Shown piece by piece: positions 1 through 31,533 of a stretch of 64,000 nucleotides of DNA (its first letter is position 1; every line of letters begins with the position of its first letter). The notes under the pieces were generated by a model. The model was not told where the DNA came from. It did no database searches and worked only from the letters and a program-made list of their open reading frames with translations. The stretch covers positions 62,001 through 126,000 of the forward strand of contig NZ_JARNTW010000011.1 of the NCBI RefSeq assembly GCF_029433105.1, read 5' to 3'. Source of the DNA: Runella sp. MFBS21 (GTDB lineage: Bacteria; Bacteroidota; Bacteroidia; Cytophagales; Spirosomataceae). A program made the position numbers and the translations under genes.

Positions 1-2
1 AT

Positions 3-416
3 ATGGTCAACAATCAGCGCGTTCATGATCTTATTCTGGCTTTTTACAAAAAGAATTTACCTATTGGAGCCATTTGCTATGGCGTAGCACCTTTGGTTTT
101 TGCACGTGATTTCAATGAGCGTATTTCTATCATCAAAGGCAAACACGTAACAGGCCACTGTATCGAATACGATTATCATGATGGTACGGGCTTCTTGAAT
201 ACCGACCTCAACATGGGGCCGCCGCCGTATTGTTTGGAATATATCCTAGCTGATGCGGTAGGACCAGACGGGCAATTCCACGGAAACTTTGGCAAAGCGA
301 CTTCTGTCATTGTGGACTATCCTTTTATTACGGCGCGCTCACTTCAGTGTTCTTTTGAGTTTGGCGAACAGTTTGTAAATGTCCTTGATAACGGAATGAA
401 AAGATATGGGTGGTAA
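3..416 (+). CDS. DJ-1/PfpI family protein, 5' end cut by window
   Basis: This is the C-terminal part of a class I glutamine-amidotransferase-like (DJ-1/PfpI) protein. The nucleophile-elbow motif GAICYG is visible, with the Cys at codon 25 of the fragment. The rest aligns by eye with the complete paralogue at 8108-8863: both share AVGP(D/N)G, a YPFITARS/DHPFVTALS stretch and an FG(E/D)xxVxVL end. By that comparison about 110 N-terminal residues lie before the window, so the apparent Met at position 3 is probably internal. The family includes chaperones, glyoxalase III/deglycase enzymes and isonitrile hydratases; the exact reaction cannot be read here. The stop codon overlaps the next gene by 11 bp, which suggests translational coupling. 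Confidence 0.85.
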   Translation: MVNNQRVHDLILAFYKKNLPIGAICYGVAPLVFARDFNERISIIKGKHVTGHCIEYDYHDGTGFLNTDLNMGPPPYCLEYILADAVGPDGQFHGNFGKATSVIVDYPFITARSLQCSFEFGEQFVNVLDNGMKRYGW

Positions 417-2112
417 AACTGGTAATCAGAAAATTATTGAGCAGTTTTTGGCCGATGGTATGGATTTCATGTTTGGGAATCCGGGTACGGTAGAACAAGG
501 TTTCTTGGATGCCGTAGCTGAGTACCCCGACATGAAATACATCCTGACTTTGCAAGAAAGTATTGCAGTGATGATAGCCGACGGCTACGCTCGCCATACC
601 CAACGTCCCACTTTGGTACAGTTGCACAGTTCTCCCGGTATTGGAAATGCCGTAGGAGCTCTCTATCAAGCCAAAAGAGGCCATGCGCCGTTGGTGGTGA
701 TTGGCTCCGATGCTGGCACCCAATACATGAATATGGATTCGCAAATGGCTAACGATTTGGTGGCGATGATGGAGCCTGTTACCAAATTTTCGACGGTAGC
801 CCTTTCTTCTAAATCGCTTCTTCGTACCCTTCGTAAAGCCATCAAAATCGCAGCTACTCCTCCTATGGGACCTGTGTATGTGTGCTTACCGATGGATATT
901 TTGGATGAAATCAATGAGGAGACAGTTTTTCCGACTTGTATTCCATCTACCAAGGTACTACCCGACCCAAGTTTGATTTCGGAAGCAGCCCAAACGCTAC
1001 TTTCAGCCCAAACACCCATGATTTTTATCGGAGATGGGGTGGCCTATTCGGATGCGATTCCTGAGCTCACAAAAGTAGCCGAACTCGTTGGAGCCGAAAT
1101 ATACGGGGTAGATTTTGGGGATGTCATCATCGACACTACTCATCCCCTCTACCAAGGCACGACTGGACACATGTTTGGGTCTTATAGTCATCCTATCACG
1201 AGCAAAGGAGATGTTAATTTCATTGTGGGTACTTACATGATGCCTGAGGTATTTCCCGAAGAAGGGGATATCTACGCTCCCGGTGCAAAAGTGATTCATT
1301 TTGACCTCAATAGTTATGAAATCGCTAAAAATCACCGAGTTGATTTAGGTGTTGTATGCGACCCTAAGCTGTCTCTCCAAGCCCTTGCCGATCAACTAGA
1401 AGCAACCATGAGCGACAAATTTAGGGAAGCCGCTGCCACAAGAACTCAAAAAATTGGCGAAGCGAAAGCCGCCAAACTAGCAGCTGAATTGGCAAAAGAC
1501 CAAGCCCAAAAAGGGAAATCGCCTTTGCAAATGTCACAGTTTGCCGAAATTTTGGCTCAAAAACTTCCCGCAGATGCCATCATTTTTGATGAAGCTTTGA
1601 CGAGCTCTCCGGCTATCACTCGCTATATTCCGCCACGTGTTCCGGGCAATTATTTCGTAACAAGAGGTGGTTCTTTGGGAATTGGTTTTCCAGGTGCTAT
1701 CGGTGCCAAACTCTCTCAACCCAACAAAACCGTGATTGGCTTTTCGGGAGATGGAGGAAGTATGTACACCATCCAAACTCTGTGGTCGGCAGTGAGGCAT
1801 AAAGCAGGTGCCAAGTTTGTGGTTTGTAACAACGGTTCCTACAAACTACTACAGCTCAACATCGATGTATATTGGAAAGAACGCAACATCGACAAGCACC
1901 CTTATCCCCTACCCTTTGACTTATCTTATCCCGCTATCAGATTCGACATTTTGGCACAGTCGATGGGAGTCAAAGCCGTCAGAGTCGAAAAAGAAGAGGA
2001 AATTTTGCCGGCTATTGAGCAAATGCTCGCCGACGACGAACCGTTCTTGATTGATTTGGTACTAGAAGGAGATTACAAACCCGACTGGGTCAAGACCAAT
2101 TGCTCTCAGTAA
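406..2112 (+). CDS. ThDP-dependent enzyme, benzoylformate decarboxylase-like
   Basis: This 568-residue protein has the three-domain ThDP enzyme layout of acetolactate synthase and benzoylformate decarboxylase. The N-terminal PYR domain carries NPGTVEQGF (about 25-33), the cofactor-activating Glu51 in LQESIAVMIADGYA, and His74 in LHSSPGIGNAVGAL, which matches the active-site His70 region of benzoylformate decarboxylase. The C-terminal ThDP/Mg motif runs from GDG (448-450) to NN (475-476). A 2-oxo acid decarboxylase or carboligase role is likely; the substrate is unknown. The Ser26 position of benzoylformate decarboxylase appears to be Thr28, and its second catalytic His is not obvious. The start overlaps the preceding DJ-1 gene. 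Confidence 0.85.
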   Translation: MGGKTGNQKIIEQFLADGMDFMFGNPGTVEQGFLDAVAEYPDMKYILTLQESIAVMIADGYARHTQRPTLVQLHSSPGIGNAVGALYQAKRGHAPLVVIGSDAGTQYMNMDSQMANDLVAMMEPVTKFSTVALSSKSLLRTLRKAIKIAATPPMGPVYVCLPMDILDEINEETVFPTCIPSTKVLPDPSLISEAAQTLLSAQTPMIFIGDGVAYSDAIPELTKVAELVGAEIYGVDFGDVIIDTTHPLYQGTTGHMFGSYSHPITSKGDVNFIVGTYMMPEVFPEEGDIYAPGAKVIHFDLNSYEIAKNHRVDLGVVCDPKLSLQALADQLEATMSDKFREAAATRTQKIGEAKAAKLAAELAKDQAQKGKSPLQMSQFAEILAQKLPADAIIFDEALTSSPAITRYIPPRVPGNYFVTRGGSLGIGFPGAIGAKLSQPNKTVIGFSGDGGSMYTIQTLWSAVRHKAGAKFVVCNNGSYKLLQLNIDVYWKERNIDKHPYPLPFDLSYPAIRFDILAQSMGVKAVRVEKEEEILPAIEQMLADDEPFLIDLVLEGDYKPDWVKTNCSQ

Positions 2113-2118
2113 ATCGGT

Positions 2119-2145
2119 AAGTGCTAAACCTATTTTTTAGCACTT
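2119..2145 (+). terminator. 10-bp perfect hairpin after the ThDP gene
   Basis: The arms AAGTGCTAAA and TTTAGCACTT surround a 7-nt loop, seven bases after the ThDP enzyme stop codon. No long U-tract follows, so it could be a weak terminator, an attenuator or an mRNA-stabilising hairpin inside the operon. A second small inverted repeat (GGCAGC at 2150, GCTGCC at 2172) lies just downstream. This is the largest gap (109 bp) in the first 30 kb. Confidence 0.5.
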
Positions 2146-2221
2146 CATAGGCAGCAGAAAATCATTCAAAAGCTGCCATTTATATCAATTTTTTTACTCA
2201 ACATTCAACGAAAAAACTTAT

Positions 2222-2647
2222 ATGCTCACCAAAGAATCTATCGAAACACTTGCTGCTGTTTGGTACAGAAAATTAGATGTCCATGCTCCAATGGTCGAAC
2301 TTCTCCCTCTTCTCATCGACGACGGTCTTGAGATGGTTTTCCCTGAAGCAACTGTCTATGGACATGCGGGTTTTGAAGGATGGTTTCAGAGAGTTATTCG
2401 CATATTTTTTGACGAAGTACACACTCTCAAACTCGTAGAACCTACCATCACCGACGATACTGCAGTGGTAAAAGTGGTGGTAAAATGGGAAGCAAGTGTA
2501 TGGAATGCACCCGATGCTTATAGCAAGCGTATCACCTTGGATGCCTACCAAACTTGGGAAGTAAAAGCTGGCCCCGATGATACAGCTTTGATTACCAAAT
2601 ACACCGTAGATGACCTAAAATACTACGAAGGCTCGGCTACACTCTAA
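2222..2647 (+). CDS. NTF2/SnoaL-like small protein
   Basis: This 141-residue protein has the pattern of the NTF2-like alpha+beta cone fold: an N-terminal helix pair, a VYGHAGFEGWF turn, then beta strands ending in LITKYTVDDLKYY. It has no signal peptide. Members act as small isomerases, cyclases, dehydratases or ligand-binding proteins, and no catalytic pair can be assigned here. It is one of three such proteins in this gene block (also 3551-3943 and 7727-8065), each placed between enzyme genes, which suggests they serve the same pathway. The fold call is fairly sure; the function is unknown. Confidence 0.7.
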   Translation: MLTKESIETLAAVWYRKLDVHAPMVELLPLLIDDGLEMVFPEATVYGHAGFEGWFQRVIRIFFDEVHTLKLVEPTITDDTAVVKVVVKWEASVWNAPDAYSKRITLDAYQTWEVKAGPDDTALITKYTVDDLKYYEGSATL

Positions 2648-2680
2648 CAAACAAATAATCTCCCTAAACCCAGCCCGATC

Positions 2681-3520
2681 ATGTCTTTTAATTTTATCAA
2701 TATCAAAAAGATTGAGAATGAGGCATTTACCATTCATTGTGTTCAGGCACCTGAAGACGGTGAAATGGTAAATGCACAAATCATTGAAACACCCAATAAG
2801 CTTTTGCTTATTGACACGCTTCAACTGAAACCTCATGCGGATGAATTGCGGCTTTATATTGATAGCCTCAACAAACCTTTGGATAAAATTTTGATTTCCC
2901 ATCATCACCCTGACCATTGGTTTGGGGCAGCTTCCTTTGAGGGCTATCCTATCAGTGCCTTTCCAGAAGTGATTGGAATCATCAATGCGTTGGCAGATTA
3001 TTTGTTGGGCTATCACCGGAGCCTTCACCCCGAAACCCCCGATGTCATTCCTTCTAATAAAGTATTGCCTACTATACCATTGGAAGAAGGCGCCATAGAT
3101 TTTGACGGAATTACCATCAATCTCCAGAAAGTTTACGAAACGGAGTGCCCTGTCAATTTGGTAGTTGAGATTCCTGACCATAAAATCCTGTTGGCTCAAG
3201 ACCTTGTCTACAACAAAGCCTACCCCTACTTTGGAGAACGTACCCAAGCAGGCGAATATGGCTTCGACAACTGGATTGCAGTGCTTGAATCTTTTGAAGC
3301 CAAAGGATATGAGCATATTTTACCTGGCCACGGCGACCCTACCGACCTCTCTATTATTCCCACTATGAGTGGGTATTTGAATTTTGCCAAAGCCAAAGTC
3401 AATGAAGGGCTACGCGGCGAAGATCTCATCAATAGCATCAAAGCAGAATACCCTGGCTATGGTCTGGAGCTTACGCTTCACATGTCCAATTATATGTTGT
3501 TTGTTTTTCAAAATCAATAA
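2681..3520 (+). CDS. MBL-fold metallo-hydrolase
   Basis: This 279-residue cytoplasmic protein has the metallo-beta-lactamase fold. The metal motif HxHxDH is SHHHPDHW (His74, His76, Asp78, His79). A further His site is in the ILPGHGDPTD segment, and the Asp ligand is probably in LLAQDLVYN. This is the layout of glyoxalase II-like and other hydrolytic MBL enzymes. It sits 33 bp after one NTF2-like gene and 30 bp before another, in a block that also encodes DJ-1, VOC and ThDP proteins. A thioester or lactone hydrolase role is plausible but inferred; the substrate is not known. Confidence 0.85.
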   Translation: MSFNFINIKKIENEAFTIHCVQAPEDGEMVNAQIIETPNKLLLIDTLQLKPHADELRLYIDSLNKPLDKILISHHHPDHWFGAASFEGYPISAFPEVIGIINALADYLLGYHRSLHPETPDVIPSNKVLPTIPLEEGAIDFDGITINLQKVYETECPVNLVVEIPDHKILLAQDLVYNKAYPYFGERTQAGEYGFDNWIAVLESFEAKGYEHILPGHGDPTDLSIIPTMSGYLNFAKAKVNEGLRGEDLINSIKAEYPGYGLELTLHMSNYMLFVFQNQ

Positions 3521-3550
3521 GTTAACCACAAACTCAACGGAATCTAACAC

Positions 3551-3943
3551 ATGAAAAACGTACCCGATACCAAACTAGGGAATATGTATCGCGAACATAT
3601 TCAATTCATTTTGGACAAAAATATTGAAGCTTTATTGGACCAATATACCGATGATGCTCTGCTCATCAGTAGCTTCATGAAAACACCGATTATCTACAAA
3701 GGTCGCGACCAAATCCGCGAGCATATGCAGGGGATTTTGGGTATCGATGGTCTAGAGTCTGACATTGTTTTTTGGGCAGAAACCGAAGACCCCGAAACCC
3801 TCATGATTACCGAACAAATCACCATGACTACCAAAGACGGTGTAAGTCAGATGCGCTTTGCTGATAGTTGGGTATTGCGCAATGGGCAGATTGCCATTCA
3901 CTTTGCAGGTATGGTGCAGCACCCCGACGGCTCTCTCGCCTAA
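3551..3943 (+). CDS. NTF2/SnoaL-like small protein
   Basis: This 130-residue protein has a clear SnoaL/DUF4440-type pattern: an N-terminal helix, LDQYTDDALLISS, a KGRDQIREHMQGIL helix, then strands ending in LRNGQIAIHFAGMV. It is the second of three NTF2-fold proteins in the block. It lies between the MBL hydrolase and the molybdoenzyme with gaps of 30 and 44 bp, so it is almost certainly in the same transcript. It may be a small isomerase, dehydratase or binding protein. No specific substrate can be inferred. Confidence 0.75.
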   Translation: MKNVPDTKLGNMYREHIQFILDKNIEALLDQYTDDALLISSFMKTPIIYKGRDQIREHMQGILGIDGLESDIVFWAETEDPETLMITEQITMTTKDGVSQMRFADSWVLRNGQIAIHFAGMVQHPDGSLA

Positions 3944-3987
3944 TTATATTTTCAAACTTTCCAATAAGAGTATAATTGCTCAAAAAC

Positions 3988-6855
3988 ATGGATTTAAAAG
4001 TAAAAATAAACGGAAAAGAATATGCTAGCGATGTAGAACCACGCGCACTTCTGGTAGATTTTTTACGGGATTCAGCTCATCTAACGGGAACGAAAGTAGG
4101 TTGTAACTCAGGAAACTGTGGGGTTTGTACGGTATTGGTCAATGGCAAAGCGACCAAAAGTTGCCAGCTACTTGCCATAGAAGCCGAAGGGAGTGATATT
4201 ACGACTATCGAAGGTCTTGCCCAAAACGGTGAACTACACCCCCTTCAAAAGGCTTTTTGGGAAAATCACGCCGTTCAGAATGGTTTCTCTACCCCTGGTA
4301 CGATTATGTCGGCGGTAGAGTTGTTGAGCCAAAACCCCGCCCCTAGTGATGCCGATATTAAACAATGGCTTCAGGGTAACCTCAGCCGCGAAACGGGCTA
4401 TCAGCAAGTAGTGGAGTCTATCAAAGCTGCTGCTGCCGAGCTCAGAGGCGAAACTTCTACCAATGAGCAAGCACCTCCCACGTCTTATATTGGGCAATCT
4501 CCCAAAACCCGCAAAACCAAAGAGCTTATCACAGGCGACGCCCAGTTTATCGCGGATATGTCGCTTCCCAATATGCTCCATGCAGCCATTTTACAAAGTC
4601 CTCATGGTCATGCCAATATTTTGAGCATCGATACTTCTGAGGCCGAAGCCATGCCGGGTGTGGTAAGGATTTTTACCTGGAAAGACACCCAGCAAGTAAT
4701 GCCCATGCCGGTGATTTGGATTCCTCCTTTCACCGAAAGTCATTTCTTGCCCCACCCTTCAGGAATTGTACCGGGCTCGCATTCGGTTTTTGCCAAAGAC
4801 CGAGTTCGGTTTGTGGGGGATCAATTGGCCGCCGTCGTGGCCGAAACCCGCCAACAAGCTTACGATGCCCTCGACAAAATCAAGGTAGAATACGAGGCAC
4901 TTCCGGTGATCTTGGATGCCGAAGAAGCCGTAAAAGACGGGGCACCTCAACTGCACGAGACCGCCCCCAACAATATCATGATTCATACAGTTTTTGGGGA
5001 CAAAGACGCTACTCAAACTGCCATCGACGAGTCGGAAGTAGTAGTAGAGCAGCGAATCTACAACCAACGACTTATGCACAATACGCTGGAAGTGAGAGGG
5101 GTACTTGCTCAACACGATCCCGCCACCAATCAGCACACTATCTGGACTAATACCCAAATCCCCTATCCGCATCGATTACTGATTTCGTTGTATGTATTGG
5201 GAATTCCATATAATAAGCTGCGAGTAATTGTACCTTACATAGGAGAAAGTAATGGCTGTAAAGGCAATCTTTACCCCGATACCCCTCTTGTACTGTGGAT
5301 GGCACGCGAACTAGGTCGCCCCGTGAAATGGGTAGATACTCGCGCTGGTTTTTCTCGCAATACAGCCCAATCAAGAGACCAAATCCAGCATATCAAAATC
5401 GCTGGAACCAAAGACGGAAAAATCTCTGCTCTAAGCTGCAAGGCATATAGCAACGTGGGAGCTTATCCTGTGATCAATGCGCCTGGGCAGCCACTCGCCT
5501 TGATTGGAAGAAGTATCACGGGAGCGTATGCGATTCCGCACGCTTCTTACGAAATCAACGTAGTCTATACCAACAAAGTCCCCACGGCTCCTATGAGAGG
5601 CTCAGGAAGGGCCGAGGCCATCTTCTTGATAGAAAGAGCTATCGAGCGTTTTGCCAGAGAGATTGGGAAGGATTCGGCCGAAGTAAGACGTATCAACATG
5701 GTTAAAAGCGACCAATTCCCGTTTGAAAATGGTTTGGGATGGACTTATGATTCTGGCAACTATGAACAAAACTTAGACATAGCCCTCGAAAAGGCAGGTT
5801 ATGCCAACCTCTCCCAAATGAAAGCAGATGCACTCCAACGCAACAAACTTCTAGGACTGGGGATAGGTTCGTATGTAGCCGTAGCAGGCGTTGGAAATTC
5901 GGCCAAAATGGGCGGTGAAGGTTTGATGAGTGGTACCTGGGGAAGTGCTTACATTCATATTGCTCCTTCAGGCGAGGTAGCTATCACTACGGGAGCGCAG
6001 CCTCACGGTCAAGGACAAGATACGACGTTTGCGCAGATTGCGGCCCAAGAGCTACAAATTCCAATGGACTACGTAACTATCCAGCACTCTGATACGGATT
6101 TGCCGCTGTATTATGGTCAAGCAAGCTACGGAAGCCGGTCTTTGAGTGTGGAAGGGGTGACTGTCCAAAAAGCTTGCCAAATGGTGATTCAGAAAGCCCG
6201 CGAATACGCCGCTTATCTGTTTAAGATGCCACTTGATCTGATTGAATACAAAGAAGGAAAAGTAATTGGAATTCCTGCTCCCGAACAAGCCGTCATGACG
6301 CTCCAACAGGTAGCACTGATGCTATGGTTTGGATGGGATTTGCCAGAAGGTATGTCGCCAGGCTTAGAGGCAACGGCTTATTTTGACCCCAAAAACTTCA
6401 ACTTTCCTTTTGGAACTCACATAGCCATAGTGGAAGTAGATAAAGACACTTGTGCTGTTGAATTGGTCAATTACATCGCCGTCGATGATTTTGGGGTAGT
6501 CATCAACCCCGAAGTGGTACGTAGCCAAACGCATGGCAATATTTTGCTAGGAATAAGCCAAGCTTTGTCAGAGGAAGCACGCTATTCTCCCGAAACAGGC
6601 CAAGTATTGACCGATGATTTTGATACTTATTCGATTGCACGTTCGAGCTGGATTCCTCATTTGGAACTTCACCGAACCGTCACGCCTTCTCCTTCCAATC
6701 CATTGGGAGTAAAGGGCGTAGGCGACGTAAGCAATCCTCCGGTGGCCCCTGCGGTAGTCAATGCCATATGCGATGCATTAGCTGACTATGGAGTCAAGCA
6801 CATAGATATGCCCGTGACCCCTGAGAAGATTTGGCAAGCCATTTATTCTACCTAA
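3988..6855 (+). CDS. Xanthine dehydrogenase-family protein: Fe-S and molybdopterin domains fused, cluster II cysteines lost
   Basis: A plant-type [2Fe-2S] domain (about 1-75; Cys39, 44, 47 and 59 all present) is followed by the second Fe-S domain (about 76-150) and a molybdopterin large subunit (about 165-956). The second domain keeps its frame (NGFSTPGTIM and GNLSRETGY), but its four expected cysteines are Asn98, Ser101, Ser133 and Glu135, so that cluster cannot form in the usual way. In the large subunit the usual GGGFG-type cofactor loop reads IGESNGCK (418-425), and the catalytic Glu of the GVGE motif is Asp913 (GVGD). GQGQDTTFAQIAAQEL is normal. The ATG at 3988 is preferred to an upstream TTG at 3976. 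The FAD subunit follows 19 bp downstream. It is either a repurposed oxidoreductase or an inactive homologue. Confidence 0.88.
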   Translation: MDLKVKINGKEYASDVEPRALLVDFLRDSAHLTGTKVGCNSGNCGVCTVLVNGKATKSCQLLAIEAEGSDITTIEGLAQNGELHPLQKAFWENHAVQNGFSTPGTIMSAVELLSQNPAPSDADIKQWLQGNLSRETGYQQVVESIKAAAAELRGETSTNEQAPPTSYIGQSPKTRKTKELITGDAQFIADMSLPNMLHAAILQSPHGHANILSIDTSEAEAMPGVVRIFTWKDTQQVMPMPVIWIPPFTESHFLPHPSGIVPGSHSVFAKDRVRFVGDQLAAVVAETRQQAYDALDKIKVEYEALPVILDAEEAVKDGAPQLHETAPNNIMIHTVFGDKDATQTAIDESEVVVEQRIYNQRLMHNTLEVRGVLAQHDPATNQHTIWTNTQIPYPHRLLISLYVLGIPYNKLRVIVPYIGESNGCKGNLYPDTPLVLWMARELGRPVKWVDTRAGFSRNTAQSRDQIQHIKIAGTKDGKISALSCKAYSNVGAYPVINAPGQPLALIGRSITGAYAIPHASYEINVVYTNKVPTAPMRGSGRAEAIFLIERAIERFAREIGKDSAEVRRINMVKSDQFPFENGLGWTYDSGNYEQNLDIALEKAGYANLSQMKADALQRNKLLGLGIGSYVAVAGVGNSAKMGGEGLMSGTWGSAYIHIAPSGEVAITTGAQPHGQGQDTTFAQIAAQELQIPMDYVTIQHSDTDLPLYYGQASYGSRSLSVEGVTVQKACQMVIQKAREYAAYLFKMPLDLIEYKEGKVIGIPAPEQAVMTLQQVALMLWFGWDLPEGMSPGLEATAYFDPKNFNFPFGTHIAIVEVDKDTCAVELVNYIAVDDFGVVINPEVVRSQTHGNILLGISQALSEEARYSPETGQVLTDDFDTYSIARSSWIPHLELHRTVTPSPSNPLGVKGVGDVSNPPVAPAVVNAICDALADYGVKHIDMPVTPEKIWQAIYST

Positions 6856-6874
6856 CCTTTTTGATTCAATCATC

Positions 6875-7714: not shown

Positions 7715-7726
7715 AAATAGATCACT

Positions 7727-8065: not shown

Positions 8066-8107
8066 ACTCTAAACATACAACCTTTAATAGATTAAAAATA
8101 AAGCATC

Positions 8108-8863: not shown

Positions 8864-8881
8864 TCTAACTTTCTGTACCTT

Positions 8882-9454: not shown

Positions 9455-9468
9455 ACCTACGCTCACTC

Positions 9469-9894: not shown

Positions 9895-9929
9895 TCGTTC
9901 TTTATTTAAACTTCTAACATACTCAATTC

Positions 9930-11756: not shown

Positions 11757-11777
11757 ACCTTCTTATTCATAAACGAC

Positions 11778-12116: not shown

Positions 12117-12120
12117 AAAT

Positions 12121-18297: not shown

Positions 18298-18315
18298 TGA
18301 TTTGTTTTATTGAAA

Positions 18316-21518: not shown

Positions 21519-21531
21519 AACCTCTTTTTTA

Positions 21532-24438
21532 ATGTTCAAAAGAAAAGCGATATATGGTATTCTCAACTTGAAGGCAGGAGATCTCTCTATGGTCTTACCT
21601 TTCATGCGTTATTCTTTTTTTATGGGAGTATCGGTCGCCATCTTTTATACGGCGAGTATGTCGTTGTTTATCAATAGTTTTGATCGCACCATGCTCCCTA
21701 AAGTATACATCGCAAGTGGTATCATTGTGTATGCGTTGGGGTTTATTGTTGCCAAAATTCAAGAGAAAGTATACTTTTCTAAATTGGCTCTGGGACTTAT
21801 TGTCTTTCTGATTGTATCGGTAGTGGGGTTATTAGTTCTGCATTTCTTGACGGGTAGTAAATGGGTGTACTTTCTTCTATTTCTTTGGAATCGGGTTTTT
21901 GTTTTTGTCAACGGAATTGCCTTCTGGGCCATTGTTTCGCGGATTTTCAATCTACAGCAAGCCAAGCGCCTCATTAGCTTTATCACCACTGGCGATGTGT
22001 TTTCGTCGATTATAAGTTATTTATCAATTCCGTTGTTATTACAATTTATCGATACCAATCAACTTCTGTATATTTCTGTCATTGTACTGATAGTATGCTT
22101 GGTAGTGATGGTATCAATTGGTAAAAAATATGAGCCTGAGCTTGCCATCATTGCCCGGGCACCTTCCAAAAACGAACGCAAAACACTCCGCTATTTTTTT
22201 GAATCTCCTTACTATACAGCCATCTTTTTGCTTGCGCTGATGCCGGTGGTAGGTTTGTTTTATGTGGAGTTTATGTTTGCAGTAGAGTCCAAAAATGTGT
22301 TTCCCAACAAAGAAAGTTTAACCAGTTTTCTAGGATTCTTTTTTGGACTGTGCGCTATTATTGAGCTACTCATCAAGACTTTTTTGTACGGAAGAGTCAT
22401 CGAAAAATACGGCCTCAAACTCGGCCTTATCATTCTACCCTTGGCACTTACCGTATTTTTTGTATTTGCGGCGTTATATGGGTCTTTTTATGGCAACAAC
22501 TACGTCTTTTTTGCCTTTGTAGCAATGGCTCGTTTTTTTATGAGCACCTTCCGTAAATCTATCAATGACCCCTCTTTTCAACTTTTATTTCAACCTATTG
22601 TCCCTGACGAACGCATCGAGCTACAAAGTCGGATCGAAGGCGGCCCCAAAGCAATGGGCAATATAGTGGCGGGAGTTTTGTTGATGGCGCTTACCTATTT
22701 TTCTTTTGTAGACAGTGTTTATTTGTCTTATTTCTTCGTTTTGGTGCTTTTGGGCTGGTTGTCAATCTCTTTCAAGACCCAAAACCTCTATCGCAATGTG
22801 CTAAAAAACTTGCTCATGGATGTCAACAAGTTTAAAAAAGCCTATCAAAAGCACAAAATATCGATACTTTCATCACCTCATTTTAGCAAAATCACAGAAA
22901 TAAACCAGCGCTATGACTTTGAGAAAGTAATTCGATTAGCTACCTCTCCTCGCTCTGAAGAAAGATTGAAATCGGTGTATTTGTTAGAAAAATCAGGACG
23001 CTATTTTGCTTACAAACACCTCGAAACGCTGCTACAAGACCCCAACACTCAAGTAAGGCAAGCGGCCATATTGGCCGCAGGCAATATCAAAAAAAGTGAA
23101 CTTTGGCCTTATTTGTTCAACAACTTACCTTCAAAATATTTCGCCAAATCAACCTCTTTGGCTTTAGCTCGTATTGGGGAGCCGGTGATTGGCGAACTTG
23201 AGCGTTATTTTAATCGTGTTGAAAACGATAAAGTTACACAGCTAACCATCATTGGTATTTTTGAAAAAATCATCAGCCCTGCTTCTTTGCGGATTTTGCG
23301 GGCCAAAATCAACCACCCTGACCCTCAGATAAGAGACCGGGTATATGAAGCCCTCAAAAACCTAAACCACCGCGCCACTTCTCTCGAACGCCCCCATATC
23401 AATGCCGAAATCGACGAAAGAGCAGCCTTGATTGTTTGGCTCCTTGCAGCCCGAAGAGATATTTCTACCCAAAAAGACCTCATCAAACTACGGAAAGCCA
23501 TCTCGGCCGAAAACCGCCAAATGGTGCCAAAGCTTTTTACGCTCCTTGATATTCTCAACGGTGAGCAGGGTTTTGAACTCATCAAAGAACTATACGACAA
23601 CAAAGGAGAAGATACCAAGGGCTTTTTGCAGGAGGTTTTCAATATGTCACTTACCGAAGATTTGAGGGTAAAATTGGTACCTATTTTTGAGGATACTCCG
23701 CTCAACGAAAAATTGCAGAAATGCCAAGCCAATTATCCTCAACAAAACTTGACGGTAGAAGAGCGTATTCTGGATATTATCAATAAAGATTTCTCTCAAA
23801 TCTCTAAATCGCTCAAGGCCATCGCCATCCAGCATTTACTAAGATTTCCAGAGTCAGATCATAGATATATACTCATTGCTTGTGCCAATTCAGACGCGGT
23901 GATTGTGGCCGAATCAGCCCTATATGTGTTGTATCAACTTTATCCCGAATCATTTGCAGAGTTTAAAGAAACAGCACTTTTACATGAAGCAGAAAGCTCG
24001 GTGTTGTTATGTGAAAAAATTGAAAAAGGGCTAAAAAAAGACGAGTTATTGGTCTATAAGCTCTCTCATATTAGACCATTAGAGCTTTTTGAAAACATCC
24101 CAAGTGACGAATTGCTCACGATTGCCAATCAGCGAGTCAGTCTTCATCTTAACGAAGGCGAGATTATATTTATGCAACCTTATTGTAGCGATGGCTTGCC
24201 TTGCGTGTTGGTCAGAAGGGGCGAAATCGAGCTTCATGAATCAGACGGTACGCATCTATTGCTCAGCAAAGACGACTATTGGTATCGGTCCCCTGTGCCC
24301 CCTCCTCATAGTTTGCTGCATTCGATAAAGGCCCTCAAAGCCACTGAGCTTATTTTATTGGATCCGTATTTAGTATATAATCTAATTGCCCAAGATGAAA
24401 TAGAAAAAAGTAGCATTCTTATTCATGAAGGCGAATAA
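21532..24438 (+). CDS. MFS/nucleotide-translocase-like transporter fused to HEAT repeats and a cyclic-nucleotide-binding-like domain
   Basis: This 968-residue protein has about 12 membrane helices in residues 1-425, of MFS or ATP/ADP-translocase-like appearance. A soluble helical-repeat region (about 460-810) follows, with HEAT units such as RLKSVYLLEKSGRYFAYKHL and DPNTQVRQAAILAAGNI. A C-terminal domain (about 850-960) begins FENIPSDELLTIANQRV and continues with LNEGEIIFMQ, typical of cNMP-binding beta barrels. The phosphate-binding cassette is not clear, so a ligand is uncertain. Such fusions suggest a transporter turned into a sensor. The start lies 13 bp after the GNAT, and the end overlaps the next kinase gene. 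Confidence 0.82.
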   Translation: MFKRKAIYGILNLKAGDLSMVLPFMRYSFFMGVSVAIFYTASMSLFINSFDRTMLPKVYIASGIIVYALGFIVAKIQEKVYFSKLALGLIVFLIVSVVGLLVLHFLTGSKWVYFLLFLWNRVFVFVNGIAFWAIVSRIFNLQQAKRLISFITTGDVFSSIISYLSIPLLLQFIDTNQLLYISVIVLIVCLVVMVSIGKKYEPELAIIARAPSKNERKTLRYFFESPYYTAIFLLALMPVVGLFYVEFMFAVESKNVFPNKESLTSFLGFFFGLCAIIELLIKTFLYGRVIEKYGLKLGLIILPLALTVFFVFAALYGSFYGNNYVFFAFVAMARFFMSTFRKSINDPSFQLLFQPIVPDERIELQSRIEGGPKAMGNIVAGVLLMALTYFSFVDSVYLSYFFVLVLLGWLSISFKTQNLYRNVLKNLLMDVNKFKKAYQKHKISILSSPHFSKITEINQRYDFEKVIRLATSPRSEERLKSVYLLEKSGRYFAYKHLETLLQDPNTQVRQAAILAAGNIKKSELWPYLFNNLPSKYFAKSTSLALARIGEPVIGELERYFNRVENDKVTQLTIIGIFEKIISPASLRILRAKINHPDPQIRDRVYEALKNLNHRATSLERPHINAEIDERAALIVWLLAARRDISTQKDLIKLRKAISAENRQMVPKLFTLLDILNGEQGFELIKELYDNKGEDTKGFLQEVFNMSLTEDLRVKLVPIFEDTPLNEKLQKCQANYPQQNLTVEERILDIINKDFSQISKSLKAIAIQHLLRFPESDHRYILIACANSDAVIVAESALYVLYQLYPESFAEFKETALLHEAESSVLLCEKIEKGLKKDELLVYKLSHIRPLELFENIPSDELLTIANQRVSLHLNEGEIIFMQPYCSDGLPCVLVRRGEIELHESDGTHLLLSKDDYWYRSPVPPPHSLLHSIKALKATELILLDPYLVYNLIAQDEIEKSSILIHEGE

Positions 24439-27400
24439 TATGACTCTTGTATCAATGAAAAACACTATATCAATTACCCATAGCTCTTATGTACCTTCTT
24501 GGCCTTCCTTGATTTTGAAGGTGTGGGGAGTGGTATGTCTGATGATATGGGTAACAAGTATCAATGCTCAAGTCAACGACAACACTACTGAGAAAGGAAT
24601 TCCGCTCAGCAGATTGTTTATTCCTAAAGAATACAATGCTCACGGCCAAAACTTTGCGATTGCCCAAGACACGCGCGGCTTGATGTATTTTGGAAACTTT
24701 GCAGGAGTGCTAGAATACGACGGAGTAACATGGCGTACGATTCCTACCCAAAATATCACAAAAGTATCGGCCTTACACGTGAGCAAATTTGGAAGAGTTT
24801 TTGTGGGAGCATTGGGCGAATTTGGTTATCTCAAACCCGATAGCCTCGGTACCTTATATTTCGAAAGTTTGAGCAAAGATGTCAAAACAAATTTCGGGGC
24901 TATTATCAATATTTTTCAAACCAATGAAGGTATCTATTTTATCTCCCAACGACACATTTTTTTGCTAACACCCAAAGGGTTAAAAGAGTTTAAGGTCAAT
25001 GGCACGATTATGTCGTCGTTTTATGCCAACGAAAAAATCATTGTATTGCTTAAAGACAGTGGTCCACAATTTATCGAAGGGCAAAGTCTCATTCCTATTT
25101 CCAAGGCTCCCTCCACTCCTACCCTCTTTGACTTAACGGCTGTTTTTCCAATAAGCAACAATGAGTTTTTGTTGCTCACAAGTAGTCAAGGCTTGTTCAA
25201 ACTCACAAACAACACTATTCAAGTATTTGATTGTGAAGCCAATAAGTACCTTACCTCCAATCAAACATCAGCGGGTACCGTACTCGACAATGGAGATTTG
25301 GCCATTAGCACACTCAACCAAGGAGTTTTGGAAGTATCGCCTCAAGGACAAATCAAAAACCGAATCAAAGACAATGATTACCTCCAAGACCTTCAGGTAA
25401 ACGCCATGTTTTCGGACCGTGACGGCATGCTTTGGCTTGCCCTCAACAATGGGATTGTGCAAATTGAGATAGCTTCGCCTATCGAAAGATTCAATGAGTT
25501 TAGTAATTTGAAAGGCGAAGTGAAGGCTATCAGTCGCTACAATGGCCGCTTATATGTGGGTACGCTCAATGGTCTTTTTTCTGTAAATGGATTTTTGGTC
25601 AACAATATAGCAGGAATCAACGCAAGCTGCTTCGGATTGGCTAAGTCGTCAACAGGACTGTGGATTGCGACAAACAAAGGCTTATTGAAATTGGTCGGTA
25701 ATAATTCTGTTCAGCAAATCACTCCCTTTTATTCCCTTTGTGTCTATACTTCTCAATCTAATCCTAACCACGTATTTGTAGGACAACAAAACGGTCTAGG
25801 GATGATTACGACTTCGGGCAAAGGTCAAAGCTACAAACTCGTTCCGCAAATAACGGAACAAATCATGAACATCACGGAAGACGAAAACGGCAATCTATGG
25901 CTTGAAACCCTCACCGAAGGGCTTATCAAATTCAATGTAGCTTCCAATCAGGTTAAGAAATATACTACCCAAGAGGGCCTATCTGTGATGGTCAACAACC
26001 GCGTCGTAGCTACTTCCAAAGGACTCATCGCTTACAATCAAAAAGGCGTCTTTAGATACAATCCTACCAAAGATGTCTTTGAATCCTTTAATTTATTCCA
26101 GACCAAAAACTCATCCGCAGCTTATTGGAATGGCATCATCGTAGAAGATCAAGCCAAAAACCTCTGGACCACTCGTGGTGATGAAAAAGTAATTACACTT
26201 TATCAAAAACTTGACCAACCAACCAAACCTTACCAAGAAATTGCTACGCCTTTCTTACCCCTGGCTGAGACTTCTTTTGGAGTGATTTATCCTGATGTCA
26301 ATCAAGTAGTTTGGTTTGGAGGAGCCGAAGGACTCATCAAATTTGACCTCAAAACAAGCCGCGATTACAATCGTGAGTATGCCTCGTTGATTCGTAAAAT
26401 CAGCAAAGGAAATCAGATTCTTTACAATGGATACCCTACCGATACTATCGCCAAACAAAATAACATGGCTGTGCGTAGGATTGAATTGGACTATCAAGAC
26501 AACAACATTCTTTTCGAATTTGCGGCACCGAGTTTTCATGCCAACGAAATCTTGGAATTTCAGTACTATCTCGAAAATTTTGATCAAGCATGGTCAGAAT
26601 GGACTACCCAATCTCAAAAAGAATATACCAACCTCCCACCGGGCAATTATCAGTTTAAGGTCAAAGCGCGTAATATTTATGGTATCGAAAGCGAAGAAAC
26701 TGTTGTTCTGTTTAGGGTACTTACGCCTTTGTATCTCCAATGGTGGGCTATCTTACTGTACGGTATTCTGATTGGCACGGCCATTTATTTTTCGGTGAGA
26801 TGGCGATTGAGAGTGCTTGAAAGAGAAAAGCTAGAGCTAGAGAATCTTATCCAAGAGCGTACAGAAGAGGTAGTTAGCCAAAAAGTAGAACTAGAAAAAC
26901 AGTCGGATGAACTTACCAATAAAAATGACCAACTCGAAAAGATAGACATTATTGTACAGGCCATCAATACTGAAATCAATTTTGGCAATTTGTTTCAAAC
27001 GGTTTTGACCCGCCTCAAAGTGATTCGCAACATGGACTGCGCCAGTGCGTTGATTTATGACAAAGACACCAACGGCTATCGTTTCAAGGCACTTTATGGA
27101 TTCAGTGAGTTATCACTTTTAGGAGCCGTACAATTGACTCCCGAACAAGCCGAAAAACGCTACTTAGACGAAGCTATCGAGGTATATGAAGATATCTATT
27201 TCAAAAACGATATCAAATACGATAAGCTCAACAATATGATTGACCAACTCGTCACTCCCAAGTCAATGATTACGATTGTTATCAAAGTTGACAATCACAT
27301 TGAAGGTTTTATCACGCTCGAAAACTGCGCCCGTGCTAGCGCTTTTGACCAGCGAGATTTCAATATGATCAAAAACCTCAAGGAGCACCTTATTGCGGCT

Positions 27401-28264
27401 TATATCAAAACCCGTTTGTTGGAAAACCTTGAAAAAACCCTGAGCAATCTCAAAGAAACCCAAGAAGAACTCATTCGTCAAGAGCGCTTGGCATCGGTTG
27501 GGCAGCTTACCAAAGGAATTGTGGACCGCATTTTGAATCCTCTCAACTACATTAACAACTTCTCGGAATCGTCTAAGTTGCTCATCGACGAGTTCCAAGA
27601 GCTTATTGATAAATACCAAGCAGAATTGTCAGACGATTTAAAAGATGATGCCTATGACTTATTAGATGTACTCAAAAGCAGTATTTCAAAAATATACGAC
27701 CACGGCAGCAGCACCACACGTATCGTCAAAGACATGCAAAAGCTTCTGAAAGAAAAATCGAGAGACTTTTTTGAAACAGACCTTAACAATTTTGTGGAAA
27801 ATCGCGCCAAAGCTGTTTACCAAGAATTCAAAAATACCAACAAGGATTTCAACGGGCAGCTTCTCATACATTTGGATAAACAACCTGCCAAAACCAACAT
27901 TTTACCTCCCGAATTGGGCGATGTCATCACTAGCCTTGTAGACAATGCCCTGTATACCCTCGCGGAGAAAAGCAAACTAAATAAGGGTTTTGAACCTCTG
28001 GTGACTATCACTACCGAAGTAGCATCAGAGGAAGTAGCACTCAAAATTAAAGATAATGGGAAAGGTATTCCAAAAAGGGATTTAGCCCTACTATTTAGCC
28101 CCTTTTTCACTACCAAACCTACCTCAAAAGGTACAGGTCTGGGATTATTTATGAGTAAAGACATTATAGAATTGCACAAAGGGAAAATTAGTATCAATTC
28201 AAAAGAAGGTGAGTTTACGGAGGTAGTGATTGTATTACCTACCGTAAAATCGTCTTCTTTATAA
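24425..28264 (+). CDS. Hybrid propeller-type sensor kinase lacking the phosphoacceptor His
   Basis: This 1279-residue protein has a signal anchor and a two-component-regulator propeller (about 60-680; repeats such as GMLWLALNNGIVQIE and NGRLYVGTLNGLF). A Y_Y_Y domain follows (about 690-760, NLPPGNYQFKVKARNIYG), then a membrane helix (about 770-790), a coiled coil and a GAF-like domain (about 850-1000). The H-box region reads LTKGIVDRILNPLNYINNF, where the normal HE is replaced by Asp1034-Arg. The ATPase part is intact: LVDNALYTL, DNGKGIP, GTGLGLF. It may bind ATP but cannot use the standard His. A start at 24440, just after the upstream stop, is also possible. The intact kinase gene follows 12 bp later. 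Confidence 0.88.
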   Translation: MKANNMTLVSMKNTISITHSSYVPSWPSLILKVWGVVCLMIWVTSINAQVNDNTTEKGIPLSRLFIPKEYNAHGQNFAIAQDTRGLMYFGNFAGVLEYDGVTWRTIPTQNITKVSALHVSKFGRVFVGALGEFGYLKPDSLGTLYFESLSKDVKTNFGAIINIFQTNEGIYFISQRHIFLLTPKGLKEFKVNGTIMSSFYANEKIIVLLKDSGPQFIEGQSLIPISKAPSTPTLFDLTAVFPISNNEFLLLTSSQGLFKLTNNTIQVFDCEANKYLTSNQTSAGTVLDNGDLAISTLNQGVLEVSPQGQIKNRIKDNDYLQDLQVNAMFSDRDGMLWLALNNGIVQIEIASPIERFNEFSNLKGEVKAISRYNGRLYVGTLNGLFSVNGFLVNNIAGINASCFGLAKSSTGLWIATNKGLLKLVGNNSVQQITPFYSLCVYTSQSNPNHVFVGQQNGLGMITTSGKGQSYKLVPQITEQIMNITEDENGNLWLETLTEGLIKFNVASNQVKKYTTQEGLSVMVNNRVVATSKGLIAYNQKGVFRYNPTKDVFESFNLFQTKNSSAAYWNGIIVEDQAKNLWTTRGDEKVITLYQKLDQPTKPYQEIATPFLPLAETSFGVIYPDVNQVVWFGGAEGLIKFDLKTSRDYNREYASLIRKISKGNQILYNGYPTDTIAKQNNMAVRRIELDYQDNNILFEFAAPSFHANEILEFQYYLENFDQAWSEWTTQSQKEYTNLPPGNYQFKVKARNIYGIESEETVVLFRVLTPLYLQWWAILLYGILIGTAIYFSVRWRLRVLEREKLELENLIQERTEEVVSQKVELEKQSDELTNKNDQLEKIDIIVQAINTEINFGNLFQTVLTRLKVIRNMDCASALIYDKDTNGYRFKALYGFSELSLLGAVQLTPEQAEKRYLDEAIEVYEDIYFKNDIKYDKLNNMIDQLVTPKSMITIVIKVDNHIEGFITLENCARASAFDQRDFNMIKNLKEHLIAAYIKTRLLENLEKTLSNLKETQEELIRQERLASVGQLTKGIVDRILNPLNYINNFSESSKLLIDEFQELIDKYQAELSDDLKDDAYDLLDVLKSSISKIYDHGSSTTRIVKDMQKLLKEKSRDFFETDLNNFVENRAKAVYQEFKNTNKDFNGQLLIHLDKQPAKTNILPPELGDVITSLVDNALYTLAEKSKLNKGFEPLVTITTEVASEEVALKIKDNGKGIPKRDLALLFSPFFTTKPTSKGTGLGLFMSKDIIELHKGKISINSKEGEFTEVVIVLPTVKSSSL

Positions 28265-28275
28265 TCAATGTTAAC

Positions 28276-29175
28276 ATGGAAAAAGCGAATCAATCGAGTG
28301 AAGCTCCACCAAACACTGCTTTTCTTCCAAAAGAGCAACAACACGCCCATGAAGATGATGAAACGTTTAAAGAACGTTTTGTACAACTTAATAAGCTAGC
28401 CGAAATCGGTCAGCTTACCGCAGGGATCATGCACGAAATCCAAAACCCACTCAATTTCATCAACAATTTTTCCAAATTATCGGTTGATTTGGTTCATGAG
28501 ATGAAAGAGATTTTCGACAAAAAACAAGACACACCTCTCACGGAAGAAGAAGAAGACTTACTTTTTTTGCTAGACAAGCTGGTCGGAATCAACGTCAAAA
28601 TCAGTGAAAATGGAGGGCGTATCACGCGTATTATTCAAAGTATGCTCGCCCAGACCCGTACCGAAAACCAAAGTGCAAAATTTGAACCCGTAGATTTGAA
28701 TCAATTGCTGGAAGAGTTTACCAAACTCGCTTATCAAGGAGTACGTGGTGAAGACAAGGCTTTCAATGTATCGTTTGTGTTTCAGTTTGACCCAAGCGTA
28801 GGCAAAGTCAAACTAGCTGCCACGGAGATAAGTCGTGTAGTACTCAATCTGGTCAACAACGCTTGCTATGCCCTCAACGAAAAACGTAAAGGAGAAGGCG
28901 CAGGATTTGCTCCTCAAATTTCGGTAAGCTCGACGCGCCTCGCCCAGACTGTCCAAGTCAAAATCAAAGACAATGGCAACGGAATACCTGATTCTATCAA
29001 AGAAAAAGTATTTTCGCCTTTTTTTACTACCAAACCCGTCGGCAAAGGCTCAGGGTTAGGATTGGCATTGAGTCGAGATATTATTACGATTATGCACAAA
29101 GGACAGTTGGAAGTGGTATCAGAAGAAGGTAAGTTTACAGAATTTACGATTCAGATACCCCTAGATTTATCTTAA
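28276..29175 (+). CDS. Sensor histidine kinase (soluble, HisKA + HATPase)
   Basis: This 299-residue kinase core has no membrane segment. The H-box is LTAGIMHEIQNPLNFINNF with phosphoacceptor His53. The ATPase boxes are VLNLVNNACYAL (N), IKDNGNGIP (G1), SPFFTTKPVGKGSGLGLAL (F/G2). It resembles the C-terminal kinase part of the preceding propeller protein, but keeps the His that protein lacks. A simple reading is that the two act together: the membrane protein senses the signal and this protein is phosphorylated. The REC-PP2C protein 65 bp downstream is the natural phosphoacceptor. Confidence 0.92.
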   Translation: MEKANQSSEAPPNTAFLPKEQQHAHEDDETFKERFVQLNKLAEIGQLTAGIMHEIQNPLNFINNFSKLSVDLVHEMKEIFDKKQDTPLTEEEEDLLFLLDKLVGINVKISENGGRITRIIQSMLAQTRTENQSAKFEPVDLNQLLEEFTKLAYQGVRGEDKAFNVSFVFQFDPSVGKVKLAATEISRVVLNLVNNACYALNEKRKGEGAGFAPQISVSSTRLAQTVQVKIKDNGNGIPDSIKEKVFSPFFTTKPVGKGSGLGLALSRDIITIMHKGQLEVVSEEGKFTEFTIQIPLDLS

Positions 29176-29239
29176 ACCAAACCTCAAGAATTCTTGTTAC
29201 TCTCATTCCTAAGAAAAACTCATTAAAAATTACTAAGAC

Positions 29240-30415
29240 ATGGCTATCAAGATACTCAGTATGGACGACGAATTGGATATGGAAATGCTGATTCAAACCC
29301 GATTCAGAAAACAAATCCGAGAAAGAAGATATGAGTTTATTTTTGCCCACAATGGCATCGAAGCTCTCGAAGTTTTGGAGCAACACACCGATATTGATAT
29401 AGTGCTGTCGGATATCAACATGCCCGAGATGGACGGCCTGACTTTTTTGACAAGACTCAACACTATCAACAATCCACGAGTGAAGGCAGTCATGGTTTCA
29501 GCTCACGGCGATATGGACAACATCCGCAAAGCCATGAACCTCGGGGCTTTTGATTTTATAACGAAACCCATCAATTTTGAGGATTTAGATATCACCATTG
29601 ATAAAACCGTAGGGCATATCGAAATGCTCATTCAGCATCAAAAAGAACGCGACCAACTGGTCTCAATTCAAAATGATTTGCTGATTGCTCGCGAAATTCA
29701 GCAGGCAATGTTACCAAAGATTTTTCCGCCCTTCCCTCATCGCAAAGATTTTGATTTGCACGGATTTCTTGAACCTGCCAAGTCTGTGGGAGGAGATTTG
29801 TTTGACTTTTTTATGATGGACGAAAACCATCTTTTCTTCATCATCGGGGATGTGTCCGACAAAGGAGTTCCGGCTTGTATGTTTATGGCCATTACCAAGG
29901 CTATTTTCAAAACCCACTTTCTTCACAGCAGTTTTGAGAATATCGCCGAAGAAGTAAGACAAGTAAACGCGTTTTTGTCGGAAGACAATGACTCTTTTAT
30001 GTTTGTGACTGCTTTTGTGGGAGTACTTGACCTCACGACGGGCGTCGTCGAATATGTAGATGCAGGTCATGAGCCTCCGCTTATTTTGCGCAAAGACGGT
30101 ACTGTAGAAGTCGTCAAGAAAAAAACCGGAATGGCCTTAGGAATAGATCCTACCTACGACTATCATACCCAAGTTCTCACGCTTCAGCCCGGAGATACCT
30201 TGTTTACTTATACCGACGGAGTAACAGATGCCAACAACGAAGCCGGAGATCGATTTGGGATGAAAAAAGTAGAAGAATTAGTAGCCTCTATTGGTCCGAA
30301 TAATACTCCTAAAGAAATCAACACTACGGTAAAGGCCACCTTAAAAGAGTTTATTGGAACCCATTATCAGTTTGATGATATTACGACGCTTACCCTCCAA
30401 TATTATGGCAATTAA
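29240..30415 (+). CDS. Response regulator with PP2C (SpoIIE/RsbU-type) phosphatase output
   Basis: This 391-residue protein has an N-terminal receiver with the acidic pair in LSMDDE and phosphorylated Asp58 in VLSDINMPEMDG. A linker leads to a SpoIIE-type PP2C domain (about 150-390) with metal motifs SVGGDLFDFF, IGDVSDKGVPA, YVDAGHEPPL and FTYTDGVTDA. By family it dephosphorylates the Ser of a STAS antagonist when activated by its receiver. Its expected substrates are the two STAS proteins at 11778 and 14275, and its expected kinases are the two preceding genes. It is the last gene of the block, before a strong terminator. Confidence 0.92.
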   Translation: MAIKILSMDDELDMEMLIQTRFRKQIRERRYEFIFAHNGIEALEVLEQHTDIDIVLSDINMPEMDGLTFLTRLNTINNPRVKAVMVSAHGDMDNIRKAMNLGAFDFITKPINFEDLDITIDKTVGHIEMLIQHQKERDQLVSIQNDLLIAREIQQAMLPKIFPPFPHRKDFDLHGFLEPAKSVGGDLFDFFMMDENHLFFIIGDVSDKGVPACMFMAITKAIFKTHFLHSSFENIAEEVRQVNAFLSEDNDSFMFVTAFVGVLDLTTGVVEYVDAGHEPPLILRKDGTVEVVKKKTGMALGIDPTYDYHTQVLTLQPGDTLFTYTDGVTDANNEAGDRFGMKKVEELVASIGPNNTPKEINTTVKATLKEFIGTHYQFDDITTLTLQYYGN

Positions 30416-30473
30416 GGTGGAGCCGTTATTTTACCCTAATTGACACGCTACCACAATTCATACTTAGCAGTAC

Positions 30474-30508
30474 AAAAGAGCAATTGCCTTCTTGGCAGTT
30501 GCTCTTTT
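30474..30508 (+). terminator. Strong intrinsic terminator ending the 30-kb gene block
   Basis: The 15-bp arms AAAAGAGCAATTGCC and GGCAGTTGCTCTTTT pair with one G-U and enclose a 5-nt loop. The A-rich left side and U-rich right side make it usable in both directions. It lies 58 bp after the REC-PP2C stop codon. Confidence 0.85.
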
Positions 30509-31525: not shown

Positions 31526-31533
31526 GCCCCCTT

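Follow-up and report, generated by a model that had tools for sequence, protein, structure and literature searches.

A two-module gene block on a plasmid-like Runella replicon and the candidate client of its partner switch

What does a partner switch act on when its genes stand in one block with sugar enzymes? The question is raised by a locus of Runella sp. MFBS21, which we analysed in a stretch of 64,000 nucleotides of contig NZ_JARNTW010000011.1 (hereafter the window). There, a block of 23 genes encodes metabolic enzymes, among them an AGE-family epimerase/isomerase-like enzyme and the glycogen debranching enzyme GlgX, together with two STAS proteins, an RsbW-like kinase, a PP2C phosphatase and an nSTAND NTPase. 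Comparison of genomes and plasmids indicates that the locus is real, conserved and unusual: a composite of two modules, one of which is shared across phyla on plasmids. The explanation we prefer, at a probability of roughly 40%, is that the block is a composite plasmid-borne alpha-glucan and stress island whose own partner switch acts on sugar enzymes and not on a sigma factor. A more specific version, which we put forward tentatively, is a mobile partner switch in which RsbW would exchange between STAS1 and STAS2, the latter a subunit of AGE (and of the module GlgX), and which would have been rewired in Bacteroidota. In that version the switch is carried by plasmids in four phyla and has RsbW-less relatives in a fifth; a trans-envelope STAND module would have been inserted into it, linking outer-membrane sensing to the use of stored glucan after translation.

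Extent and conservation of the block

All 23 open reading frames lie on the + strand and span 3..30415, which bears out the tight same-strand block of a preliminary description made from the window's letters. Their 22 intergenic gaps measured -14 to 64 bp, with the sole exception of 109 bp between the gene for the thiamine diphosphate (ThDP) enzyme and NTF2a. Domain identities were checked with Pfam and NCBIfam. The genes, and the hairpin that follows them, are:

3..416, +: DJ-1a, type 1 glutamine amidotransferase-like, C-terminal part; homologues in other phyla
406..2112, +: ThDP enzyme; closest solved structures are benzoylformate decarboxylases
2222..2647, +: NTF2a, small conserved protein without a Pfam family
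2681..3520, +: metallo-beta-lactamase-fold hydrolase (MBL), variable cassette
3551..3943, +: SnoaL_2/NTF2-fold protein (Pfam)
3976..6855, +: xanthine-dehydrogenase-type molybdo-enzyme (Fer2 and Mo domains)
6875..7714, +: FAD subunit of the molybdo-enzyme
7727..8065, +: NTF2c, small protein without a Pfam family
8108..8863, +: DJ-1b (ThiJ-like)
8882..9454, +: DJ-1c (PfpI type), in the cross-phylum core
9469..9894, +: VOC (glyoxalase-type) protein
9930..11756, +: AGE-family epimerase/isomerase-like enzyme
11778..12116, +: STAS1, RsbV-like, candidate phospho-Ser54
12121..14238, +: GlgX glycogen debranching enzyme, module-specific clade
14275..14595, +: STAS2, candidate phospho-Ser57
14655..15080, +: RsbW-like GHKL serine kinase
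15112..18297, +: nSTAND1 NTPase with C-terminal WD40 and one hydrophobic segment (497-515); module B
18310..20931, +: TonB-dependent receptor; N-terminal domain common to small outer-membrane barrels beside nSTAND in other families
20928..21518, +: GNAT acyltransferase, weak FeeM similarity
21532..24438, +: NTT (ATP/ADP carrier)-HEAT protein
24425..28264, +: HK1, propeller-Y_Y_Y sensor and ATPase domain, Asp1034 at the expected position of the phospho-acceptor His
28276..29175, +: HK2, HisKA-HATPase kinase without a membrane segment, His53
29240..30415, +: REC-PP2C (SpoIIE type) phosphatase, REC Asp58, four conserved Asp expected to bind metal
30475..30507, +: terminator-like hairpin, 14-bp stem

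Pfam recovered most of the domains that the preliminary description had named: three DJ-1 proteins, the ThDP enzyme, MBL, the molybdo-subunit and FAD subunit, VOC, AGE, GlgX, two STAS proteins, HATPase_c_2 (RsbW), nSTAND1 with WD40, the TonB receptor, GNAT, HEAT, two HATPase kinases and Response_reg with SpoIIE. MFS, in contrast, stayed below its cut-off, and of three proposed NTF2-fold proteins one (3551-3943) passed Pfam and two were without a Pfam family. The DJ-1a gene is clipped by the window edge; its true start lies 411 bp upstream, giving a full protein of 275 aa (PF17124/PF01965). The molybdo-enzyme (3976-7714) and a GMC oxidoreductase are alternatives at one position of the block, and many relatives have the latter.

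The hairpin after the last gene had been described as a strong terminator. It exists at 30475-30507, but is absent from the terminator scan output, presumably owing to a short T-run. A second hairpin, at 2119-2145 (-10.1 kcal/mol), had been thought able to split the block; it is likewise absent from the scan and no T-run follows it, which rules it out as an intrinsic terminator dividing the block. Across the family loci, median gaps were short for most gene pairs. Gaps above 100 bp occurred between VOC and AGE (11/22 loci), GlgX and STAS2 (12/23) and STAS2 and RsbW (8/23), and internal promoters are therefore plausible there. A scan for a Bacteroidota promoter motif gave matches inside genes and none in any block gap, and was uninformative.

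To survey conservation we used 150 genomes of the family Spirosomataceae, with cut-offs of E<=1e-20 for AGE and E<=1e-60 for nSTAND. AGE was found in 27/150 and nSTAND in 32/150, and all 27 AGE genomes were among the nSTAND genomes, which excludes the possibility that the metabolic and signalling genes never co-occur. Four of the 27 loci (G002, G008, G012, G025) are split over contig ends and one (G006) starts within the ThDP gene. The remaining 22 are contiguous, G015 lacking DJ-1a to MBL in the fetched stretch and G063 lacking DJ-1a, ThDP, VOC and GNAT, and the gene order is retained in the contiguous loci. Named carriers in the fetched records were Dyadobacter (four loci), Persicitalea jodogahamensis, Spirosoma terrae and Runella rosea, with Mucilaginibacter galii (Sphingobacteriales) the one carrier seen in a different taxonomic order; the carrier loci fetched from the genome-contig search stop before PP2C. 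The same order was thus kept in other genera, so that chance is excluded and the metabolic and partner-switch genes form one conserved block, as had been proposed. Across the class, AGE (E<=1e-60) was present in just 2/395 genomes, both Runella, and nSTAND (E<=1e-100) in 19/395; the block is therefore rare outside its family.

The five genomes with nSTAND and no AGE are all Larkinella. In these, nSTAND-TonB-GNAT-NTT-HK1 stand alone at the locus, and AGE, both STAS genes, RsbW, the module GlgX and PP2C were not found in the 40 kb around nSTAND. A sixth Larkinella genome (G076) has the full block. The division into metabolic and signalling halves drawn in the preliminary description does not hold: STAS1, STAS2, RsbW and PP2C accompany the enzymes on Deinococcus and five Streptomyces plasmids, and the part that does separate is the one found alone in Larkinella. 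As a separate observation, a gene of 336-337 aa lies directly 3' of REC-PP2C in G150, G164, G126 and G076, the G150 copy being of bestrophin type by Pfam; a bestrophin gene is also present near AGE in Nostoc edaphicum.

Module A and the candidate client

By gene content, module A (DJ-1a, ThDP, DJ-1c, AGE, STAS1, GlgX, STAS2, RsbW and PP2C) is a recurring unit in other phyla. A search of 72,556 plasmids with AGE returned 20 records, 17 of them with at least 80% cover, and the gene neighbourhoods of all 17 were examined. Eight have RsbW, PP2C, STAS1, STAS2 and GlgX: Runella, Nostoc NIES-3756, Deinococcus and five Streptomyces. On the Deinococcus and Streptomyces plasmids the order is DJ-1a, ThDP, other genes, DJ-1c, in places VOC, then AGE, STAS1, GlgX, STAS2, RsbW, PP2C and MinD/ParA, so that AGE-STAS1-GlgX-STAS2-RsbW is common to Bacteroidota, Deinococcus and Streptomyces. 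The Deinococcus RsbW is unannotated and was located by tblastn. When RsbW alone (E<=1e-12) was searched against the same plasmids, it matched exactly these eight records. The other nine AGE records have varying DJ-1/ThDP sets and another type of GlgX.

GlgX follows the same boundary. GlgX (E<=1e-100) matched 402 plasmid records; identity reached 60% or more in eight of them, the same eight that have RsbW. Within the family, module-type GlgX (78-100% identity, two contig-cut copies included) was found solely in the 27 AGE genomes of 150, other family copies were at most 48% identical (E<=1e-100), and six block-less Runella genomes had no GlgX at E<=1e-100. The block GlgX is the sole GlgX of the window genome at E<=1e-20. 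In the tree, module GlgX of Bacteroidota, Nostoc, Deinococcus and Streptomyces lies with Streptomyces SAT1 on one side of a 100/100 branch, across from housekeeping and fusion-type GlgX; the SAT1 branch is long, and the program warned of long branches meeting at that point. The label 'carbonyl-type' previously given to the metabolic genes overlooks this glycogen theme, which also includes a GT3 glycogen synthase (PF05693, 607 bits) encoded just outside the window, ~85 bp 5' of DJ-1a and in the same orientation. Genes of GlgE, GlgB, TreS or maltokinase type are further present in the Streptomyces neighbourhoods, which fits a putative alpha-glucan/trehalose role.

Signalling residues were scanned in 33 family stretches, and the counts refer to those that could be read. 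RsbW (PF13581) has the N-box Glu and Asn in 26/26, the STAS Ser is present in 27/27 STAS1 and 25/25 STAS2, and PP2C (PF07228) has four Asp residues in 25/25, a DDDD motif that we take to be the PP2C/SpoIIE metal site. The residues of REC, HK2 and the P-loop were kept in all readable stretches. HATPase_c_2 had four matches in the window genome, among which the block RsbW is the sole small stand-alone protein (E<=1e-5). No stressosome RsbR, with an N-terminal sensor before STAS, was found in the block, where the STAS proteins, of 106 and 112 aa, each consist of a single domain. Just one small HATPase_c_2 protein is encoded in the block; no search with a model specific to RsbT was made.

Relatives point to a candidate client. 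Among the 17 plasmid records, 14 have a STAS gene that adjoins AGE or is fused to it. A C-terminal extension of ~100-150 residues is present in the AGE proteins of Gemmobacter, Nostoc C052, Gloeothece and Nostoc edaphicum, and Pfam detected STAS in three of these four (E 6e-11 to 1.4e-10); the Gemmobacter STAS is a 23% tblastn match only. In the STAS tree, STAS1 of four phyla forms one group (100/100), and all four fused domains, together with the STAS of RsbW-less Streptomyces, lie on the STAS2 side of a 100/100 branch. The phosphosite was Ser in all 16 STAS of RsbW-bearing plasmids. In seven RsbW-less records with STAS it was Thr, Thr, Ser, Ala, Pro, Ala and Ala (Ser in 1/7), the last two Ala sites coming from the same protein accession, as judged visually from the alignment. 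Three of these seven have histidine-kinase-like neighbours and no RsbW. Since STAS2 stays with AGE where the switch is missing, mostly with a residue other than Ser at the phosphosite, we name AGE as the candidate client; fusion of AGE to a STAS2-type domain elsewhere suggests that it is the enzyme on which the switch may act. Separately, a Gloeocapsopsis AGE (L296:16992-18875) stops just within a STAS-like extension and resembles a truncated fusion.

Module B and the replicon

Module B (nSTAND-WD40, TonB receptor, GNAT, NTT-HEAT and HK1) is, judged by its gene neighbourhoods, a unit that recurs in Bacteroidota where module A is missing. The composite block has it between RsbW and PP2C, which adjoin in Deinococcus and Streptomyces, and the simplest reading would be an insertion between the two. 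RsbW was directly upstream of nSTAND in 23/23 family loci measured, with gaps of 2-127 bp. The nSTAND1 match is strong (PF20703, 2.2e-84), and the P-loop Lys was present in 30/30 readable stretches of the 33. Given the one hydrophobic segment of nSTAND (497-515), a cytoplasmic NTPase would place WD40 on the far side of the membrane. One nSTAND match, G164:C34:1170263-1173391, was reported with one TGA in an open frame.

Outside the family we surveyed 40 nSTAND loci, with L027, L029 and most of L153-L214 left out. A TIR-like gene was directly upstream of nSTAND in 22/40, and Pfam confirmed TIR in 5/7 sequences (best 2e-15). Of the 37 loci whose downstream neighbour was called, 29 had a TonB receptor, or a homologue of a small barrel with the TonB N-domain, in that position, and NTT-HEAT genes were beside or near nSTAND in many. 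TIR was absent from the Pfam results for the block proteins, in which RsbW occupies the TIR position. Clusters of TIR, nSTAND-WD40 and outer-membrane barrel, most with NTT-HEAT near, were also noted in several Bacteroidota families (L141, L146-L152; G042, G046, G050, G055), some of them followed by a giant protein.

The protein previously called an MFS-HEAT fusion does have HEAT repeats, but its transporter part is better read as a putative NTT. It matched an ATP/ADP carrier, 9j3j, at 2.9e-4 and not PF03219, which one of two distant homologues passes. A cyclic nucleotide-binding domain (cNBD) was not detected in it by Pfam at E<=0.001; no more sensitive test was made. HK1 has Asp instead of the phospho-acceptor His in 30/30 readable stretches of the 33, and may be a sensor paired with HK2. 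GNAT similarity to FeeM was weak (1.8e-4 in the window protein, with 5/7 homologues matching, and the solved-structure matches shown being other GNATs), and an autoinducer-like synthase is at most a possible role for it.

The window appears from its gene content to be on a plasmid-like Runella replicon. The copy of the block in a close relative (genome G009) is on the Runella rosea plasmid NZ_CP030852.1. In another Runella genome (G012) the block contig has 127 identical end bases, is apparently circular, and carries homologues of the Rep and ParA of NZ_CP030852.1 at 88% and 99%. The window contig (234,597 bp) has ParA and a Rep3 initiator a few kb beyond the block, but no overlap between its ends. 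Multi-megabase contigs can carry the block in other genera (G145:C1, G150:C1). The features past the hairpin are:

30776..33417, +: LytTR response regulator and TPR-HisKA_2 kinase, also 3' of the block in other Runella
34861..35817, -: ParA ATPase of the replicon
36897..37841, +: Rep3 plasmid replication initiator

The stretch separating the TPR kinase from ParA has two near-identical hairpins (common core ATAAGTCCCAAAATGGGATTTAT) on either side of a long inverted repeat (33460-33488, 33612-33657, 33871-33903), a possible partition or replication site.

Competing explanations, related systems and meaning

The preferred explanation, a switch on sugar enzymes, would work as follows. An envelope signal would be received by the TonB receptor N-domain and by WD40 on the periplasmic side of the nSTAND, which has one transmembrane segment, and by the HK1 sensor acting via HK2. 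It would lead to REC phosphorylation and switch PP2C on. PP2C would dephosphorylate STAS1, STAS1 would capture RsbW, and RsbW would release STAS2. Instead of a sigma antagonist, STAS2 would be a subunit through which AGE, a sugar enzyme, is regulated, and perhaps GlgX as well. The client in the sigma position would thus be a carbohydrate enzyme pair, and the switch would set the use of stored alpha-glucan. DJ-1, VOC, MBL and the oxidoreductases may deal with reactive carbonyls made under stress.

A classical transcriptional switch, in which RsbW sequesters a primary, extracytoplasmic function (ECF) or other regulator coded elsewhere and the block is its main target operon, is a serious but unlikely competitor. 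The output of most known partner switches is gene expression, according to the available text of PMC8256260, and the block RsbW looks canonical, matching an RsbW structure in the PDB at 2.3e-4. For the SigB/F/G family (TIGR02980), none of 15 matches in the window genome was over the cut-off (best 111.5 of 234.35 bits), which argues against such a client, but the cut-off is strict and was passed by just 1/14 control genomes. The fourteen weaker sigma-like matches besides the best one would speak for a transcriptional switch. Against this explanation, no sigma gene was listed from DJ-1a to MinD on the Deinococcus and Streptomyces plasmids, in a gene table self-described as incomplete, and STAS2-type domains remain with AGE where RsbW is missing. 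We regard it as doubtful that the nSTAND NTPase is the client, with RsbW, standing at the TIR position of its cousins, gating or replacing the STAND effector. The position of RsbW directly upstream of nSTAND in every family locus measured, where TIR-like genes stand in 22 of the 40 other loci, would favour it. However, RsbW occurs without this nSTAND in Deinococcus, Nostoc and Streptomyces, and nSTAND without RsbW in Larkinella, and therefore neither needs the other.

The plasmid location, exchangeable oxidoreductase cassette and patchy distribution would also suit a stress island of co-useful genes that were collected and co-transferred, its modules without a direct molecular link. This is improbable given the AGE-STAS1-GlgX-STAS2-RsbW order in Bacteroidota, Deinococcus and Streptomyces and the strict co-retention of these genes. 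Least probable by far is an nSTAND-based defence or conflict system with the metabolic genes as passengers. The block has an nSTAND1 and its cousins have TIR, domains of a type reportedly described in conflict systems, but for nine of the 23 block proteins PADLOC reported just two matches, both weak, and a phage-defence reading was rejected on that result. No effector domain was found by Pfam in the window nSTAND, and its partners are a receptor and a transporter.

Other points weigh against the sugar enzymes as clients. The binding, phosphorylation and enzyme steps are all predictions from sequence. Contact between AGE and STAS2 in partner-switch loci is extrapolated, as fusions were seen only in RsbW-less loci, and those loci have GlgX of a different clade. 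The Gemmobacter STAS is on a very long branch and most of the STAS tree, including branching within the STAS2 group, is unresolved, and Gloeothece retains Ser without RsbW on that plasmid record. The eight RsbW-bearing plasmids amount to fewer independent cases, the five Streptomyces being closely related; Nostoc NIES-3756 has its genes in two clusters, STAS2-RsbW-PP2C lying ~18 kb from AGE-STAS1-GlgX; and the REC-PP2C match spans just 72-85% of the protein on plasmids of other phyla. The step from HK1 to HK2 is a guess, and HK1 is without His even in loci without HK2, having not regained it in the three such loci read. The weak sigma matches of the window genome reach down to ECF-like lengths, and on one Streptomyces plasmid that lacks RsbW a sigma-70 gene lies ~11 kb upstream of the module.

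The block resembles the RsbU-RsbV-RsbW and SpoIIE-SpoIIAA-SpoIIAB systems of Bacillus in its GHKL kinase, STAS with conserved Ser and SpoIIE-type PP2C. In contrast to these, its PP2C is under a response-regulator domain, the genome has no SigB/F/G client over the cut-off, and the block holds enzymes and two distinct STAS, one of a type fused to a sugar enzyme elsewhere. Non-canonical STAS systems, HmpU-HmpV-HmpW of Nostoc punctiforme among them, likewise have an unknown target (PMC8256260, available text). The hmp genes form a motility and polysaccharide locus, whereas gene order, fusion and phosphosite loss point to a client for the block. NTT-HEAT(-cNBD) fusions, with an ATP/ADP-carrier-like domain followed by HEAT repeats as in the block, are given no known function in the accessible part of PMC5381601; the block protein differs in standing beside an nSTAND, a TonB receptor and a kinase. 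Control of Streptomyces GlgX by cyclic di-GMP (PMC9530166, in the part available) is a precedent for direct signal control of glycogen debranching, by small-molecule allostery there and by a protein partner switch as proposed here. GlgX expression rises on desiccation in PMC12029717, whose available text contains neither 'anti-sigma' nor 'DJ-1'. Among the matches listed from the open-licence literature, no paper was on this locus.

Several partner switches have an unknown target, and the comparative evidence offers a concrete, testable client in the sugar enzyme that is fused to STAS in relatives. For STAND NTPases, the block provides a clear envelope setting, in which the outer-membrane partner keeps its N-terminal domain while the barrel is exchanged. 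If the preferred explanation is true, carbohydrate enzymes would come under the direct control of partner switching, and plasmids would spread such switches between phyla.

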